From the NCBI GenBank assembly GCA_021324545.1, contig JAJPIX010000030.1, forward strand, positions 1-59,036: 59,036 nucleotides of DNA. The letters run 5' to 3'. Below, one piece after another: positions 15,521 to 22,529 of the stretch (positions are counted from its first letter, which is position 1; every line of letters begins with the position of its first letter). Origin of the DNA: Alphaproteobacteria bacterium. GTDB taxonomy: Bacteria; Pseudomonadota; Alphaproteobacteria; Micropepsales; Micropepsaceae. The translations under genes were made by a program, and so were the position numbers. The notes beneath the pieces are model-generated. The model searched no databases. It saw only the letters and a list, made by a program, of their open reading frames with translations, and had not been told where the DNA came from.

Positions 15521-16741
15521 ATGGATACAAAAAGCATGCAGCGACCGGCCCCCAAAAGCCCCATCAGACCAGCGATTGCCGACCTTCAGGCCAATGGAAT
15601 CGGCCTGGTGTCGTCCCTGGCCCTGGGCGAGCCCGACGTGATCGCGCTGTGGTTCGGGGAAAGCGACCTTGTGACTCCGGCCTTCATTCGCGATGCGGCC
15701 AAGAAGGCGCTCGATGACGGCAAGACGTTCTACACGAACGCGCGCGGCACCTTTCACCTGCGCGAGGCGATAAAGCAGTTCCACAAGCGGACGGTCGAGA
15801 CCGATCTGGACCTGGAGCGCATCACCGTTCCCGGCGCCGCGATGCTGGCGGTGATCGTGGCGCTGCAGTGTGTGGTGGAGACGGGCGACAACATCGTGGT
15901 GGTGTCGCCCGTATGGCCGAATATTTTCCAGGCAGCGGAAATCTGCGGCGCCGAGGTCCGTTTCGCGCGGCTGGAGGACGACTGGAAGGCAGCCACGCCG
16001 CATTGGCGGCTTGATCTTGATAAACTGTTTGCGCAGTGCGACGCGCGGACAAAAGCCATTTTCGTCTGTTCGCCGGGCAATCCCACCGGCTGGATCATGC
16101 CGCGCAATCAGCAGCAGGACCTGCTGAATTTCGCGCGAAAGAAGAACATCGCCATTATCAGCGACGAAGTTTACGGCACGCTGGTCTATGACGGCCGCAA
16201 GCATGCGCCGTCGTTCCTCGAGATCGCCGAAGAGAACGACGACGTCTTCGTGATCAACAGCTTTTCCAAGCCGTGGGCCATGACCGGATGGCGCATCGGC
16301 TGGCTCGTGCATCCCAAGCGCCTGGACACCCAGATGTGGATGCTGGCGGCGGCCAACAACACGGGCGCGACCACATTCGCGCAATGGGGCGCCATCGCGG
16401 CCCTTTCCGCGCAGGGCGATGCCTTCCGCGCCGAAATGCTGGCGCGCTGCCGCGTGGGCCGCGAGACCGTGCAGAAATTCCTCGATGCTCAAAACCGCAT
16501 CCGCTGGATACGGCCGGACGGCGCTTTCTATGGGTTCCTCCATATCGATGGAATGAAAGACAGTTTGAATTTTGCGAAAGACCTCGTCCGCAACGCGCGC
16601 GTGGGCGTTGCACCGGGGTCGGCCTTCGGGCCGGCGGGCGATCCGAATACCGACCAGTTCATCCGGATCTGCTTTGCGCAGGATTCCAGGCGCATCAAGA
16701 CCGGCCTTGAGCGGCTCGGCAAAGCCGTCAGCGCCCTTTAA
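15521..16741 (+). CDS. Class I/II PLP-dependent aminotransferase
   Basis: Fold-type I aminotransferase (406 aa) of the aspartate-aminotransferase-like group. The PLP-binding lysine is in NSFSKPWAMTGWRIGW, near residue 250; the Asn/Pro substrate motif is SPGNPTGWIM and the cofactor Asp/Tyr region is IISDEVYGTLVYDG. The substrate cannot be named from sequence; aspartate or another common amino acid is likely. It is the only plus-strand gene in this stretch, divergent from rpsB. Its last bases, TTAA at 16738-16741, are shared with the dnaE stop. An alternative start is the ATG at 15536. Confidence 0.9.
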   Translation: MDTKSMQRPAPKSPIRPAIADLQANGIGLVSSLALGEPDVIALWFGESDLVTPAFIRDAAKKALDDGKTFYTNARGTFHLREAIKQFHKRTVETDLDLERITVPGAAMLAVIVALQCVVETGDNIVVVSPVWPNIFQAAEICGAEVRFARLEDDWKAATPHWRLDLDKLFAQCDARTKAIFVCSPGNPTGWIMPRNQQQDLLNFARKKNIAIISDEVYGTLVYDGRKHAPSFLEIAEENDDVFVINSFSKPWAMTGWRIGWLVHPKRLDTQMWMLAAANNTGATTFAQWGAIAALSAQGDAFRAEMLARCRVGRETVQKFLDAQNRIRWIRPDGAFYGFLHIDGMKDSLNFAKDLVRNARVGVAPGSAFGPAGDPNTDQFIRICFAQDSRRIKTGLERLGKAVSAL

Positions 16742-19700
16742 ACCGACTCCACGGCCGCCACGCCGGGAAGCGATTTGATGGCATTGCGCATGGCGGCGGA
16801 AACCTGCTGCTTCTGCGGCAGACGGATTTCCACTTCCTGACCGGCCTCGTCCGGCACGACCAGACTGACGATGCCTTTTCCAGGCACGCGCAGCTGCGCG
16901 GAAATCGCGGCCAGCGGATCGGTGTTCTCAAGATAGATACGCAGGCCCTCGCCGGCCTGGGCCGCGGCCTGCTCGAGATCGGAAATGGAAATGGCGCGCA
17001 ATTTGAGATCATCCCCGTCCCAATCCGCCGAAACCGAAATCAGGACGGACTTTCCGGGTTCGAGCAGCGGACGCGAAGCGGTGAGGGTTTCCGCAAACAC
17101 CATCACCTCGAACATTCCGGTCGGATCGGAAAGCGAGACAAAGGCATACGGCTGATCGCTGCGCCCGCGGCGTTCCTGCTTGCGGATCACGGTGCCGCCG
17201 AGCGTCACGCGCATGCCCGAGCGGCGGCGGTCTTCCAGCAGCGCGGCATGGGTCGTTGCGCCGAGCCGGTTGAGTGCCGCCTGGTAGCCGTCCAACGGGT
17301 GTCCCGAAAGATAAAAGCCGATCGCCTGGAATTCCTCGCTCAGCCTTTCGTGCGGCAACCAGTCGGCCACGCTTGCGAGTCTGAGCGCGGGCGCGGCATC
17401 GGCAACGTCTCCGAACAGGGTGGATTGGCCGGTCTCGCGCTCACGCGTGTTGCGCGCCGCATCGTTCAGCACGGCGTCAGACGATTCCACAATCTGCCGC
17501 CGGTTTGGATTGAGCGCATCGAAGGCGCCCGCTCGTGCCAGATTTTCAAAGGCGCGCTTGTTGACCTGCCTGGGGTCGATGCGGGCCGCAAAATCCTCAA
17601 GACTGTCGAACGGGCCGCCGGCGTTGCGCACAGCCACCACATGTTCCATGGCCTGCCGGCCCACGCCCTTCACGGCGGCCAGCGCGTAATAAATGACGCC
17701 CTTTTCTCCGTCGCAGGCGAAGAAGGCCTCGGAGCGGTTGATGTCGGGCGGCAGAATCCGAATTCCAAGCCGTTGTGCCTCCTGCCGGAAGATGTTGAGG
17801 CGGTCGGTGTTGCCGATATCGAGCGTCATCGACGCGGCGAGGAATTCGACCGGATAGTTCGCCTTCAGATAGGCCGTCTGATAGGCGACTTGCGCATAAG
17901 CCGCCGCATGGCCCTTGTTGAAGCCGTAGCCCGCAAATTTCGCCGCCTGTTCGAAAATCTGCTCGGCGACGGACGGAAGAACGCCTTTTTCGCCCGCGCC
18001 CTTGATGAACAATTCCCGATGCTTGGCCATCTCGGACGGGATTTTCTTGCCCATGGCGCGGCGCAGCAGGTCGGCCTGGCCCATGCTGTAGCCGGCCAGC
18101 TCGCGCGCGATGCGCATGACATCTTCCTGGTACGTCATCACGCCGAACGTTTCATTCAGGATCGGCTCGAGCGCGGGATGCAGATAGTCCGGCGCTTCCT
18201 TGCCGCGCTTGCAGGCGATGTATTTCGGAATCGAATCCATCGGACCGGGGCGATAGAGCGCGACCAGAGCGACCAGATCGTTGATATGGTCGGGCTTCAT
18301 CTTGCGCAGAAGGTCGCGCATGCCCGCGCCTTCCAGCTGAAACACGCCCACGCTTTCGCCGCGGGACAGCATGTCGAAGGTTGCCGCATCGTTGAAATCG
18401 ATATTCTGGGTGTCAACTTCAATTCCGCGGCGCTTCAGCAGCTCTTCCGCCTTTGAAATGACCGTCAGCGTCTTCAGGCCGAGAAAATCGAATTTCACGA
18501 GGCCGGCTTTTTCCGCATCCTCATAGTCGAACTGCGTGACCGGCATTTCGGAGCGCGGATCGCGATAGAGCGGCAGGATCTCATCCAGCGGCCGGTCGCC
18601 GATGACAACGCCGGCGGGATGCGTGGACGCGTGGCGATAAAGCCCTTCGATCTTTTCCACGATCGAGAAAAGATGGCGTGCCGCCGGCTCCTGCTCGGCA
18701 ATCTGCTGCAGGCGCGGCTCGGACTCGATTGCATCCCGCAGCGAGATGGGTTTGCCCGGCGGATTGGGCACGAGCTTGGCAATGCGATCCACAAGGCCGA
18801 GCGGCATCTGCAGAACGCGGCCGACATCGCGGACAGCGGCGCGGGCCTGCAACGACCCCAGCGCGATGATATGCGCCACCCGGTCTTCGCCGTATTTCTG
18901 GCGCACATAGCGCACCACTTCGTCCCGCCGTTCCTGGCAGAAGTCGATGTCGAAATCCGGCATCGAAATCCGCTCGGGATTGAGGAAGCGTTCGAACAGA
19001 AGGCCGAAGCGCAGGGGATCGAGATTGGTGATGTCGAGCGACCAGGCCACGAGCGAGGTCGCGCCCGAGCCGCGCACGCCCACGGGGATTCCGTGATCGC
19101 GAGTCCAGCGCATGAAATCCGAGACGATCAGGAAATAGCCGGCAAAATCCATGCGGATGATGACGTCAAGCTCATAGGCGAGCCTGTCCCAATACGTCTT
19201 CTCATCGGCATACATGCCGTGCTGCTTGAGGCGCCGGGCAAGGCCGGATTCGGCCTGGGCCTTCAATTCCTCCGCCGGAGACAGGCCGGATTCCGGCACA
19301 AACTGCGGCAAGATCGGATTCCGCTTCTTGGGCCGGAACGCGCAGCGCTGCGCAATCTCAATGGTGTTTTCGATCGCTTCGGGCAGATCGGCAAACTGCA
19401 CCGCCATCTCTTCCGCCGATTTGAAGCGGTGCTCGCGCGTGAGCCTGCGCCGGTCGGCTTGCGAGACGAATGTGCCATCCGCAATGCAGAGCAGCGCGTC
19501 ATGGGCTTCGTACATGTCCTCGGCGCCGAAATGCACGTCGTTGGTGGCGACGAGCGGAAGCTGCAGATCATAGGCAAGATCGATGAGGCCGCTCTCCGCC
19601 GCGCGTTCTTCGGGCAAGCCGTGGCGTTGCAACTCCACATAAAGCCGGTCGCCAAAAATGGCGTGCAGCTTTTCAAGCATCGCGCGCGCCGCCTCAGGCT

Positions 19701-20169
19701 GGCCGTCCGCAACTAGCCGGTTGAGGGGACCGCCCGGACCGCCCGTGAGCGCGATCAGGCCTTCTGCGTGTTGCGCCAGAAGCGGAATCCTGACATGCGG
19801 CCAGTCGCCGGGCTCGGCCTTCAGATAGGCGGCACTCAGAAGCCGCGCGAGGTTGCGATAGCCGGTGTCGTTCTGCGCGAGCAGCGCGATGGAAGGCGGC
19901 TTGGGCCGCGTGCCAAGCGGGATCTGCGTTTCGCCCAGCTCAACCGAAAGCAGACAGCCCGTGATGGGCTGGATGCCGTTTTTTGCCAGGGTCTCGCTGA
20001 TTTCATACGCACCGAAGAGATTGTTGAGATCGGTTACCGCGACGGCGGGCATGGCGGCGTCGCGCGCGAGCCTGGCGAGCTCGGCGGGCCGGATCGCGCC
20101 TTCGAGCAGGGAATAGGCGCTCTTCACCCGCAGGTGAACGAACTCCGCCCTTTTCCGAACCTCTGCCAT
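16738..20169 (-). CDS. dnaE: DNA polymerase III alpha subunit
   Basis: Replicative polymerase subunit of the DnaE1 type (about 1143 aa). Domains in order: PHP (1-270), palm with the catalytic PDFDIDF near residue 405, fingers, helix-hairpin-helix and an OB fold near the C-terminus (GMRVTLGGTVIRKQE). The PHP metal motif is degraded: HLRVKSAYS has Lys where active PHP domains have His, so proofreading should come from a separate epsilon subunit. The frame is open to 20250, but homology starts at MAEVRKRAEFVHL (20169). It follows the LexA-controlled small gene by 96 nt with no clear terminator between them. Confidence 0.97.
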   Translation of the reverse strand: MAEVRKRAEFVHLRVKSAYSLLEGAIRPAELARLARDAAMPAVAVTDLNNLFGAYEISETLAKNGIQPITGCLLSVELGETQIPLGTRPKPPSIALLAQNDTGYRNLARLLSAAYLKAEPGDWPHVRIPLLAQHAEGLIALTGGPGGPLNRLVADGQPEAARAMLEKLHAIFGDRLYVELQRHGLPEERAAESGLIDLAYDLQLPLVATNDVHFGAEDMYEAHDALLCIADGTFVSQADRRRLTREHRFKSAEEMAVQFADLPEAIENTIEIAQRCAFRPKKRNPILPQFVPESGLSPAEELKAQAESGLARRLKQHGMYADEKTYWDRLAYELDVIIRMDFAGYFLIVSDFMRWTRDHGIPVGVRGSGATSLVAWSLDITNLDPLRFGLLFERFLNPERISMPDFDIDFCQERRDEVVRYVRQKYGEDRVAHIIALGSLQARAAVRDVGRVLQMPLGLVDRIAKLVPNPPGKPISLRDAIESEPRLQQIAEQEPAARHLFSIVEKIEGLYRHASTHPAGVVIGDRPLDEILPLYRDPRSEMPVTQFDYEDAEKAGLVKFDFLGLKTLTVISKAEELLKRRGIEVDTQNIDFNDAATFDMLSRGESVGVFQLEGAGMRDLLRKMKPDHINDLVALVALYRPGPMDSIPKYIACKRGKEAPDYLHPALEPILNETFGVMTYQEDVMRIARELAGYSMGQADLLRRAMGKKIPSEMAKHRELFIKGAGEKGVLPSVAEQIFEQAAKFAGYGFNKGHAAAYAQVAYQTAYLKANYPVEFLAASMTLDIGNTDRLNIFRQEAQRLGIRILPPDINRSEAFFACDGEKGVIYYALAAVKGVGRQAMEHVVAVRNAGGPFDSLEDFAARIDPRQVNKRAFENLARAGAFDALNPNRRQIVESSDAVLNDAARNTRERETGQSTLFGDVADAAPALRLASVADWLPHERLSEEFQAIGFYLSGHPLDGYQAALNRLGATTHAALLEDRRRSGMRVTLGGTVIRKQERRGRSDQPYAFVSLSDPTGMFEVMVFAETLTASRPLLEPGKSVLISVSADWDGDDLKLRAISISDLEQAAAQAGEGLRIYLENTDPLAAISAQLRVPGKGIVSLVVPDEAGQEVEIRLPQKQQVSAAMRNAIKSLPGVAAVESV

Positions 20170-20265
20170 AACCCAACCAACCCATTTCCGAATCAACCAA
20201 GTATCGCCCGCTCCGGCCACGCGCCGAGGCGGCAAAAAATCCGTCCACAAAAGCCTTTGGCCGGC

Positions 20266-20373
20266 TCATGCGTGCTGGACCATCGCCTGCACGACTGTGG
20301 CCAGCAGAAACGATGCGCCTGCAAACAGCAGCAGGCTCAGCCCCGCCATTGCATCCTTTATCCAGATCATCAT
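20266..20373 (-). CDS. 35-residue membrane peptide under LexA control (SidA-like candidate)
   Basis: A 35-codon frame begins MMIWIKDAMAG, continues as one hydrophobic helix (about residues 10-32, LSLLLFAGASFLLATVV) and ends MVQHA-stop. GGAGAA lies seven bases before the first ATG. A strong promoter with an internal LexA box sits 29-57 bases upstream. Such an arrangement recalls Caulobacter SidA, a 29-residue SOS-induced inner-membrane inhibitor of cell division acting on FtsW; I do not claim sequence homology. The predicted topology is a single-pass inner-membrane peptide. It might also be a leader upstream of dnaE. The reading frame, ribosome site and promoter together make it credible. Confidence 0.75.
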   Translation of the reverse strand: MMIWIKDAMAGLSLLLFAGASFLLATVVQAMVQHA

Positions 20374-20401
20374 TCGCCAATTCTCCAGTTTAGGGCCCGA
20401 T

Positions 20402-20430
20402 AGTATATTTGTTCCGTATTCGTTCGTCAA
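20402..20430 (-). promoter_or_regulatory. Strong promoter of the 35-residue gene
   Basis: Minus strand TTGACG, 17-base spacer, TATACT: close to the sigma-70 consensus and the best promoter match I found in this window. The -10 is at 20402-20407 and the -35 at 20425-20430, predicting initiation near 20395 and a leader of about 22 nt before the ATG at 20373. The spacer is occupied by a LexA box, so repression should be by blocking polymerase binding. Confidence 0.8.
20411..20425. promoter_or_regulatory. LexA (SOS) box, GTTC-N7-GTTC
   Basis: GTTCCGTATTCGTTC matches the alphaproteobacterial LexA operator GTTC-N7-GTTC exactly. It lies between the -35 and -10 of the promoter above, the classic repressing position. 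A second, imperfect copy (one mismatch, GAAC-N7-AAAC on the plus strand) lies immediately upstream at 20431-20445. Confidence 0.8.
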
Positions 20431-20470
20431 GAACAAAAACGAAACAACTTGTAAGTGGCTGATTTATAAC

Positions 20471-21532
20471 CTAAATATCGAAAAGGCCGCGGCCGAGGGG
20501 CACGCCCCGCGGCGTAAGCGGGCACGCGCGATAGCTCCATTCGACCACGCGCTCCAGGTCAGCCCCGAGCTGCCGCCGGACATCCTCCGCCTCGGCTCGC
20601 CGCTGCGAGGCGTCGTAGGCCAGCGAGGGCCGCTTGGCGTGGCGTTTTAAGGCCGGCCCGGCAACGACACGCGCCCAATGATCCGTTCCCTGGCCAAAGC
20701 CGAAAAAGCTGTCGAGCCTCAGGAGAGTCTCCAGCGGTTTGTCGAGGAACGCTCCGCAATTGAGCGAGACCGCCCGCTCGCCAAGCGCGGACAGGGCGTC
20801 GCGGAATTCGAGAATCTGCAAATGCCAGGCGAGCGCGGCAATCTCCAGGTCCGACATCTGGAAGATTTCCGTTTGCGACCAGGGAAGACGGTCGCGCTGA
20901 TGCCCCACCAGATCGGTGAAAAGCTTGCGGACATATTTTCGCAAGGCGAGGCCCGTCTTCGTTATTGAGACGAGGAAACCTGCGAGATCGGAATAGAGAA
21001 AGAGCGACCGGCCTGCCGTCAGGCGCGCCGCGTCGGGAAGCAGAATATTTGCAAAATTGCTCGGCTTGATCAGCACTGCTGCACCATCGCATTCCGGCCG
21101 GGCGAGAAGATGGAAGACCGCCTCGGCCAGTCCCGACAGATGCCAACCCTGCTCGAGCGACGCAGCCCGCTTGGCATCGGCAATCGAAACCAGAATCATG
21201 GGCTCGGAGAGCGCCAGGCATCTTCCGGGTGTGTCGAGGGCCTTCGCCAGAAGCGTCGAACAGCAGAAGGATGTATGCCAGATGAAGTTCGTTACCGGCT
21301 TGCCGCGGGGCGAAACGGCTTTGGCGATGTCATCAAGCGTGGCCTGCCGCTGGGGAAGGGACTGGGTATTCCACCGGTGATCGAGAAAGGGCTGGCCCGA
21401 AAGAACCGCGCGATCCGCAAAAACAAACGACATGGTCTGCCGGGGCGCCCGGAAATCCTCCGGAAACCAGCGATAGTCCTGGACAATATCCTCAACCGGC
21501 TCGTGCCGAGCCGAAGTACGCAAGACCTGCAT
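20471..21532 (-). CDS. Sulfotransferase-like P-loop protein, function unknown
   Basis: A 353-residue protein starting MQVLRTSARHEP. The segment NFIWHTSFCCSTLLAKALD (about 82-100) resembles the PAPS-binding loop of sulfotransferase-fold proteins (small residue, Ser/Cys, Ser-Thr-Leu-Leu) followed by a conserved-looking SEPMIL, and later SLFLYSDLAGFLVSI and KPSNFANILLP. I infer a sulfotransferase-like nucleotide fold; the usual Arg-Ser-Gly-Thr is Phe-Cys-Cys-Ser, so catalysis as a sulfotransferase is uncertain. The frame is open another 118 codons upstream into lolD, but that part is Arg/Cys-rich and overlaps lolD, so I start at 21532 after GGGGAAG. It separates lolD from the small SOS gene and dnaE. 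Confidence 0.7.
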   Translation of the reverse strand: MQVLRTSARHEPVEDIVQDYRWFPEDFRAPRQTMSFVFADRAVLSGQPFLDHRWNTQSLPQRQATLDDIAKAVSPRGKPVTNFIWHTSFCCSTLLAKALDTPGRCLALSEPMILVSIADAKRAASLEQGWHLSGLAEAVFHLLARPECDGAAVLIKPSNFANILLPDAARLTAGRSLFLYSDLAGFLVSITKTGLALRKYVRKLFTDLVGHQRDRLPWSQTEIFQMSDLEIAALAWHLQILEFRDALSALGERAVSLNCGAFLDKPLETLLRLDSFFGFGQGTDHWARVVAGPALKRHAKRPSLAYDASQRRAEAEDVRRQLGADLERVVEWSYRACPLTPRGVPLGRGLFDI

Positions 21533-21779
21533 CCCGTTGCTTCCCCAAGCGGCACCGCTCAGGCACCCGGACCTATGTGGGACGCAAACCGCTGACGACA
21601 AGCCCAGCCTGCTGTGGCCTACCCTCCCTGATTTGCATTGCTCGCAAACTAGTTCATATCCATGCGTACCGCGCGCGAGGCGCCCGGCCGTACATGTGTT
21701 TTTGATGCGACGCGCATTCGCCGGCCAACGCCGAACGAAAGGCGCGCGGGCCTTGCCCATGTCATCACGAAAAATTGCG

Positions 21780-22529
21780 TCAGCCCGGTTCCGGCAGGAG
21801 CTTGCCGCCTTCAACCAGCTTGCCCGCATGCAGGACGAGCGCGCGATCCATCTTCGCCGCAAGTTCCAGGTTATGCGTTGCGACAAGGGCGGCGACGCGC
21901 TCTCCCCGGACCAGCGAAAGCAACATTTCGATGACGGCGTTGGCTGTCCGCGGATCGAGATTGCCCGTGGGTTCGTCTGCCAGGAGCACGCGCGGATGGT
22001 TTACGAGCGCGCGCGCAATGGCCACGCGCTGCTGCTCTCCGCCGGACAGCTGCGCAGGACGATGATCGAGGCGCTGGCCGAGACCGACAAGCTCCAGAAG
22101 GCGCCGCGCTTCCACCTCGGCCCGCTTGCGCGGAACGCCGGCAATCAACTGCGGAATCACGAGATTCTCGAGCGCCGAAAATTCCGGCAGGAGATGATGG
22201 AACTGATAGACAAAGCCGATCTGTTCGCGCCGGAGCCGCGTTCGTTCGCCATCCGGCAACTGCGAACCGGCGGCGCCCGCCAGATAGATTTCACCGGCGG
22301 TCGGCGTTTCCAGAAGGCCGGCCATGTGAAGCAGGGATGACTTGCCCTCGCCCGAGGGCCCGACGAGCGCCACCAGCTCGCCCGGCGAGATGGCGAGGCT
22401 GACATCGCGGAATACTTCGAGCGTGCCTTCGCCCTGCGGATAGGTGCGCGTGACCGACGCCAGGCGGAGCGCGGGCTGATTGCCGGCCGGGCCGGCGGGC
22501 GATTTGCGCCTGCCGAACGGCTCACTCAT
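21780..22529 (-). CDS. lolD: Lipoprotein-releasing ABC transporter ATPase LolD
   Basis: ATPase (249 aa) of the LolCDE complex that releases outer-membrane lipoproteins from the inner membrane. Walker A is GPSGEGKSS, the signature [15 protein letters not shown], and Walker [13 protein letters not shown] with the H-loop VATHN. The start at 22529 (MSEPFGRRK) overlaps the lolC stop as ATGAGTGA, so the two are coupled; an in-frame ATG at 22589 inside lolC is rejected. A 20-residue Pro/Ala-rich lead precedes the domain. Confidence 0.95.

Follow-up and report, generated by a model that had tools for sequence, protein, structure and literature searches.

A probable SidA-type SOS division inhibitor gene heads dnaE1 in a Micropepsaceae genome and in other Alphaproteobacteria

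In a 59,036-nt stretch of a Micropepsaceae genome (hereafter, the window), the gene for the replicative polymerase subunit DnaE1 is headed by a small frame that we consider likely to be a divergent SidA-type SOS division inhibitor gene, predicted to be switched on when LexA is cleaved. Judged on sequence comparison, the gene is real and conserved, and the conservation of its frame, LexA box and position strongly supports the initial, sequence-only reading of this DNA, which had assigned it to the class of SOS-controlled one-helix peptides of the SidA kind. The frame, its promoter and boxes, their conservation, the purifying selection acting on the frame and its synteny with Caulobacter sidA were all computed in this work.

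The 35-aa peptide ORF (MMIWIKDAMAGLSLLLFAGASFLLATVVQAMVQHA; 20266–20373, minus strand) runs from an ATG at 20373 through 35 codons to a TGA ending at 20266, with a GGAG ribosome-binding site (20383–20386, minus strand) 9 nt before the start codon. Related genes have starts that align better with a second in-frame ATG, at 20370, than with that at 20373, and a longer frame opening with a TTG at 20436 was rejected because this start falls inside the promoter and boxes. Using 41 family rows, AlphaFold2 predicts a single helix spanning residues 2–34 (mean pLDDT of 95.9). The frame is thus as first described, with 35 codons, a good ribosome site and one predicted membrane helix, and by sequence and predicted structure its product has the broad SidA-type build of a short protein consisting of little more than one membrane helix. 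When run against its own genome, the family profile, of which the window peptide is itself a row, returns that peptide at an E-value of 1.8e-8 as the sole match at E 0.05. Across 51 family peptides, lysine and arginine residues number 75 before the helix core and 5 after it, and this placement of basic residues suggests an N-in topology. Two minus-strand frames of the window located directly upstream of the promoter (20471–21886 and 20559–21221) have no NCBIfam match at E 0.001 and no Pfam match at E 1; in some clade relatives, an ABC-transporter ATPase (LolD-like, by eye) appears to lie directly upstream of the promoter.

The near-consensus promoter, the perfect GTTC-N7-GTTC motif in its spacer and the imperfect upstream box that had been read from the sequence alone were all located where they had been placed. 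The predicted sigma-70-type promoter TTGACG-N17-TATACT (20402–20430, minus strand; 10 of 12 matches) comprises a −35 element at 20430–20425 and a −10 element at 20407–20402 separated by a 17-nt spacer, and it is the one promoter-like site in 20050–20560, against a shuffle mean of 0.2. Within the spacer lies GTTCCGTATTCGTTC (20411–20425), the sole perfect GTTC-N7-GTTC in the 59-kb window. By chance, a window would hold 1.7 perfect boxes, and at least one turned up in 84 of 100 shuffles, so that this box by itself proves nothing and the window alone cannot establish it as a LexA box. The case for a LexA box is instead made by its conservation in relatives, the box alone being no better than chance. 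A second putative box, GAACAAAAACGAAAC (20431–20445, plus strand), has one mismatch (GTTT-N7-GTTC on the minus strand) and abuts the −35 element on its upstream side. Of 32 clade loci (30 distinct), 6 have a perfect box on either side of the −35 element, which suggests that the imperfect box of the window is what is left of a double site. Furthermore, the lexA gene of this genome is preceded by a perfect box, GAACTAAACTAGAAC, which ends 69 nt before its start and indicates that the host LexA very probably recognises the alphaproteobacterial GTTC-N7-GTTC site. By sequence, the small gene hence has the LexA box in its promoter that characterizes SidA-type genes in the broad sense, and a box placed within the spacer is consistent with LexA repressing the promoter by occlusion. 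Perfect LexA boxes of the same genome at L001:1501–1515 and L273:1535–1549 precede lexA (TIGR00498) and a ribonucleotide-reductase-like frame with an intein-like insert, recognised by eye.

Frame and box, on whose conservation in relatives the sequence-only reading depended, are both kept in all 25 same-genus dnaE loci examined; these derive from 27 same-genus genomes searched, two of which (G018 and G019) lack a usable dnaE start. The same-genus frames encode one helix in 30–35 aa, mostly with a W-h-[KST]-D motif near the start. In 30 clade frames picked by this motif, mismatch by codon position amounts to 0.34/0.26/0.58, compared with a flat 0.70–0.71 after the stop codon, pN/pS is 0.53 over 435 pairs, and median dN/dS is 0.37 in 314 unsaturated pairs. 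The codon-position mismatch and the pN/pS ratio indicate that the frame evolves as a protein: it is protein-coding and under purifying selection. In a genome from another genus of the same family (G361), a genome-wide search with the family profile yielded no match at E 0.05. In two clade loci (L041 and L046), the peptide gene is separated from dnaE by an additional open frame of about 140 aa, yet the box, the peptide and the −35 element (TTGACA, by eye) are retained.

The gene downstream (16738–20169, minus strand) encodes the alpha subunit of DNA polymerase III. Its product scores 1402.7 bits against NF004226 (cut-off 1002), identifying it as DnaE1 and leading to the rejection of an imuAB-dnaE2 cassette, which had first been thought of to account for the LexA box. 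A second DnaE elsewhere in the genome (contig C63, 19732–22920) has a lower score, of 526.7 bits; a perfect LexA box (G000:C63:17497) lies about 2.2 kb before it, as expected of an imuAB-dnaE2 cassette. The small ORF lies directly upstream of dnaE1, as in Caulobacter, with the dnaE ATG (20169) on the same strand 96 nt past the small-ORF stop codon. The gap thus has the length first read from the sequence, and, in keeping with the further claim that it holds no clear terminator, no intrinsic terminator was found between the two genes, a weakly informative result given that shuffles average only 0.8. An attenuator in this gap was also considered and rejected, since the intergenic RNA folds no better than shuffles (z −0.28). 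In the clade, the distance from stop codon to dnaE anchor is 58–134 nt in 28 of 30 loci and reaches 515 and 520 nt in the remaining two; in 28 class-wide loci with dnaE next downstream (described below), it ranges from 17 to 256 nt.

Small frames upstream of dnaE, for which the sequence-only reading had suggested searching other Alphaproteobacteria, were indeed found there. We examined 201 dnaE loci (197 distinct, with four pairs representing the same sequence from two sources), which are not a random sample, as 32 belong to the clade of the window and seven Caulobacteraceae loci were fetched on purpose; loci with less than 450 nt upstream (L148, L198, L209 and L225) were dropped before the count. 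An automatic test that required a perfect box and, after it, a small hydrophobic ORF upstream of dnaE was positive in 73 of these 201 loci (70 distinct), compared with 1/201 in antisense, 0/140 downstream and 0/137 further upstream controls. A profile re-scan of the 128 negatives recovered five members (L191, L144, L241, L088 and L218; 38.4 to 12.2 bits), two of which (L241 and L218) have no box better than one mismatch, and no member was found within the 700 nt searched in the other 123, the next profile score being 5.5 bits. The families of L092, L105 and L107 were not counted, as they passed the test in genomes without a profile match at E 0.05. In a scan of contigs with a DnaE alignment, the best 80 loci were kept; 77 of them have 450 nt or more of upstream sequence, and a member is present in 31 of these, detected by the automatic test in 28 and by profile in three. 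Of these three, those of Asticcacaulis (12.2 bits) and of one Caulobacterales MAG have boxes with one mismatch only. Carriers among these best 80 loci include the clade of the window, Phenylobacterium, Maricaulis, Hellea, Robiginitomaculum, Parvibaculum and Tepidicaulis, together with a Sneathiellales MAG, Bradyrhizobium, Pseudolabrys, Phreatobacter and Bauldia. At loci of this set with enough upstream sequence, no member was found in Rhodobacteraceae, Roseovarius, Bartonella, Rhizobium Q54 and Pelagibius, nor at most Rhodospirillales loci.

A position-blind search yields the same neighborhood. A profile of 41 peptides matched 48 of 387 class genomes at E 0.05, and in the 30 matched loci that were opened dnaE lies next downstream on the same strand in 28 and a perfect box is present in 29, the exceptions being a locus at a contig end (L267) and a false match (L271). 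Of these 30 loci, twelve have peptides that are identical in sequence to a row of the profile; in the remaining 18, dnaE adjacency holds in 16 and the perfect box in 17. Weaker matches outside the opened loci, long frames among them, are probably in part due to chance. Profile, box and dnaE adjacency concur in 11 families of the draw (f1, f4, f9, f18, f36, f55, f61, f70, f106, f111 and f150), while the curated SidA model, NF033228, passes its cut-off in one of the 387 genomes, that of a Caulobacteraceae member. On the best reading, the sidA-dnaE1 unit is widespread in the Alphaproteobacteria and probably ancient. One locus, L162, presents a second SidA-like stretch (L162:1035–1101; 22.5 bits) about 1.2 kb upstream of its own SidA-type gene, with no perfect LexA box in the preceding 160 nt, and this stretch is possibly a decayed duplicate.

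The LpxI protein of genome G486 is 100% identical to PDB 4ggm over 274 of 274 residues, an entry found via the LpxI of the window; we take 4ggm to be the Caulobacter LpxI and, on this basis, G486 to be Caulobacter vibrioides. In G486, a 29-aa peptide is encoded directly upstream of dnaE, 35 nt away and behind a perfect LexA box; it matches NF033228.1 (div_inhib_SidA) with an E-value of 2e-20 and 72.4 bits (cut-off 35). The proximity of sidA and dnaE in Caulobacter, which the sequence-only reading had brought up, is thereby confirmed, and it also fits the locus numbering given in the literature, where sidA is CCNA_02004 (PMC10769358) and dnaE, under an older scheme, CC1926 (PMC1839093). According to PMC4211646, SidA has 29 aa, resides in the inner membrane and acts on FtsW.

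The window peptide lies outside NF033228 as drawn, with no match at E 1 (NCBIfam cut-off of 35 bits) and none at E 0.05 in its own genome. Direct profile tests between the window clade and SidA were not significant: the window-clade profile scores SidA at 2.1 bits, with 76 of 500 shuffles as good, and the Caulobacteraceae profile scores the window peptide at −6.1 bits, with 489 of 500 shuffles as good. A profile of 27 intermediate peptides, from which both the window clade and the Caulobacteraceae were left out, does link the two, scoring SidA at 20.8 bits and the window peptide at 19.2 bits, values that none of 2040 shuffled peptides reach (best 14.1). With the same profile, several clade members fall within the shuffle range of up to 14.1 bits (for instance, L041 at 8.0, L046 at 7.3 and L048 at 1.0), as does the Caulobacteraceae member L144 (7.9). 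The decoy set consisted of 79 sequences, adopted after a first set of 151 proved contaminated by unlisted family members, and it still included the window peptide via L061 (19.2 bits); the next best decoy, at 11.4 bits, probably corresponds to the additional SidA-like stretch in L162. Given the insignificance of the direct comparison, the putative homology with SidA rests on the intermediates (Parvibaculum, Maricaulis, Bradyrhizobium and Sneathiellales) plus the shared position and LexA control.

The insignificant direct similarity is what would be expected if the gene encoded an SOS-induced one-helix membrane peptide of other function that shared only its locus with SidA, such as a depolarising toxin of the DinQ/TisB type, TisB being a small SOS-regulated membrane toxin. 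DinQ is likewise described as a small SOS-regulated membrane toxin (PMC3567139), but the occupation of the same slot, the same LexA control and the intermediates linking the peptide to SidA render this reading unlikely. Alternatively, the LexA box might serve dnaE1, and the small ORF might be a mere leader peptide tuning dnaE1 translation or transcription in cis. In the opened profile loci, the ORF does sit close upstream of dnaE on its strand, and a translated frame, sORF25, is described in the dnaE1 5′-UTR of Sinorhizobium meliloti (PMC10117765). However, the variable spacing between the ORF and dnaE, the frame intervening in the two clade loci with the longest distances and the shuffle-like folding of the gap speak against a leader acting in cis. 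Moreover, the conserved sequence is a membrane helix, and Caulobacter SidA is described as working as a protein (PMC4211646), making a leader peptide quite improbable. A chance hydrophobic frame next to a chance GTTC repeat would account for the box alone, at its expected frequency per window; conservation refutes this reading, through the excess of positive loci over controls, the position-blind search, the opened loci, purifying selection and codon-position mismatch, and we assign it a negligible probability.

In the favored reading, that of a SidA-type division inhibitor, LexA bound to the spacer box would keep the gene off in undamaged cells, probably also through the weaker box beside the −35 element. 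RecA would then trigger LexA self-cleavage, the promoter would fire and the 35-aa peptide would be made, entering the inner membrane as a single helix with its N-terminus inside. There, it would hold the septal synthase complex FtsW/FtsI/FtsN inactive, so that division waits for repair. In Caulobacter, SidA is described as contacting FtsW and FtsN, and suppressors map to ftsW and ftsI (PMC4211646); by analogy, inactivation of the septal synthase is most likely also the role of the window peptide, its function outside Caulobacter being an extrapolation. The genome encodes an FtsW/RodA-type protein, with two matches to TIGR02614 that both fall below a cut-off passed by only three of 14 control genomes. 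As the small gene comes first in the unit and dnaE1 next, the same promoter would probably add replicative polymerase by read-through, which is plausible given the shared strand, the short distances observed across the class and the lack of a terminator-like site between the two genes in the window.

The novel aspect of these results lies in the breadth of the family across the class and in its repeated linkage to dnaE1. In the literature searched, portions of which were available, we found no prior statement of either, no statement on SidA relatives outside the Caulobacteraceae, on which Modell 2011, outside the scope of the search, may say more, and no named SOS division inhibitor used by Alphaproteobacteria outside Caulobacter. 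A conserved small gene beside dnaE1 provides a directly testable candidate for such an inhibitor in the Caulobacterales, Parvibaculum and Tepidicaulis, a Sneathiellales MAG, the relatives of Bradyrhizobium and the lineage of the window, and a deep alignment of the family could reveal the FtsW surface contacted by the helix. It also raises the question of whether the replicative polymerase is itself damage-inducible in the bacteria that carry it. Tentatively, and with rather less confidence than in the gene assignment, the unit may represent an ancestral alphaproteobacterial damage-checkpoint operon, whose single LexA-controlled promoter would simultaneously halt septation, via a one-helix inhibitor of FtsW, and boost the replicative polymerase through transcription running on into dnaE1. 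SidA, restricted to the Caulobacteraceae under the curated model, would then be one fast-evolving tip of a family whose peptide diverged clade by clade alongside its divisome target.

Among known systems, the closest counterpart is SidA of Caulobacter crescentus (NF033228.1), with which the window gene shares a single short membrane helix, N-terminal charges followed by a hydrophobic core, a LexA-box promoter and a position directly upstream of dnaE1 on the same strand. The window peptide differs in its length (35 vs. 29 aa), in its start (MMIWIKDAMAG), which is unlike that of SidA, in missing the FVWMM stretch of SidA and in its longer gap to dnaE (96 vs. 35 nt), and it is a peptide of predicted function without a match to NF033228. 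YneA, SosA and ChiZ are SOS-induced small membrane division inhibitors that resemble the predicted product in being damage-induced, but they belong to other phyla, and the available portion of PMC13396833 does not mention linkage to dnaE; YneA, described there as acting on FtsW and as having one membrane helix, differs further by its LysM domain. DidA of Caulobacter is also described as a small, DNA-damage-induced membrane inhibitor of the divisome, but it is SOS-independent, induced by DriD and binds FtsN (PMC4211646), and the LexA box at the window gene hence argues against membership in the DidA class.
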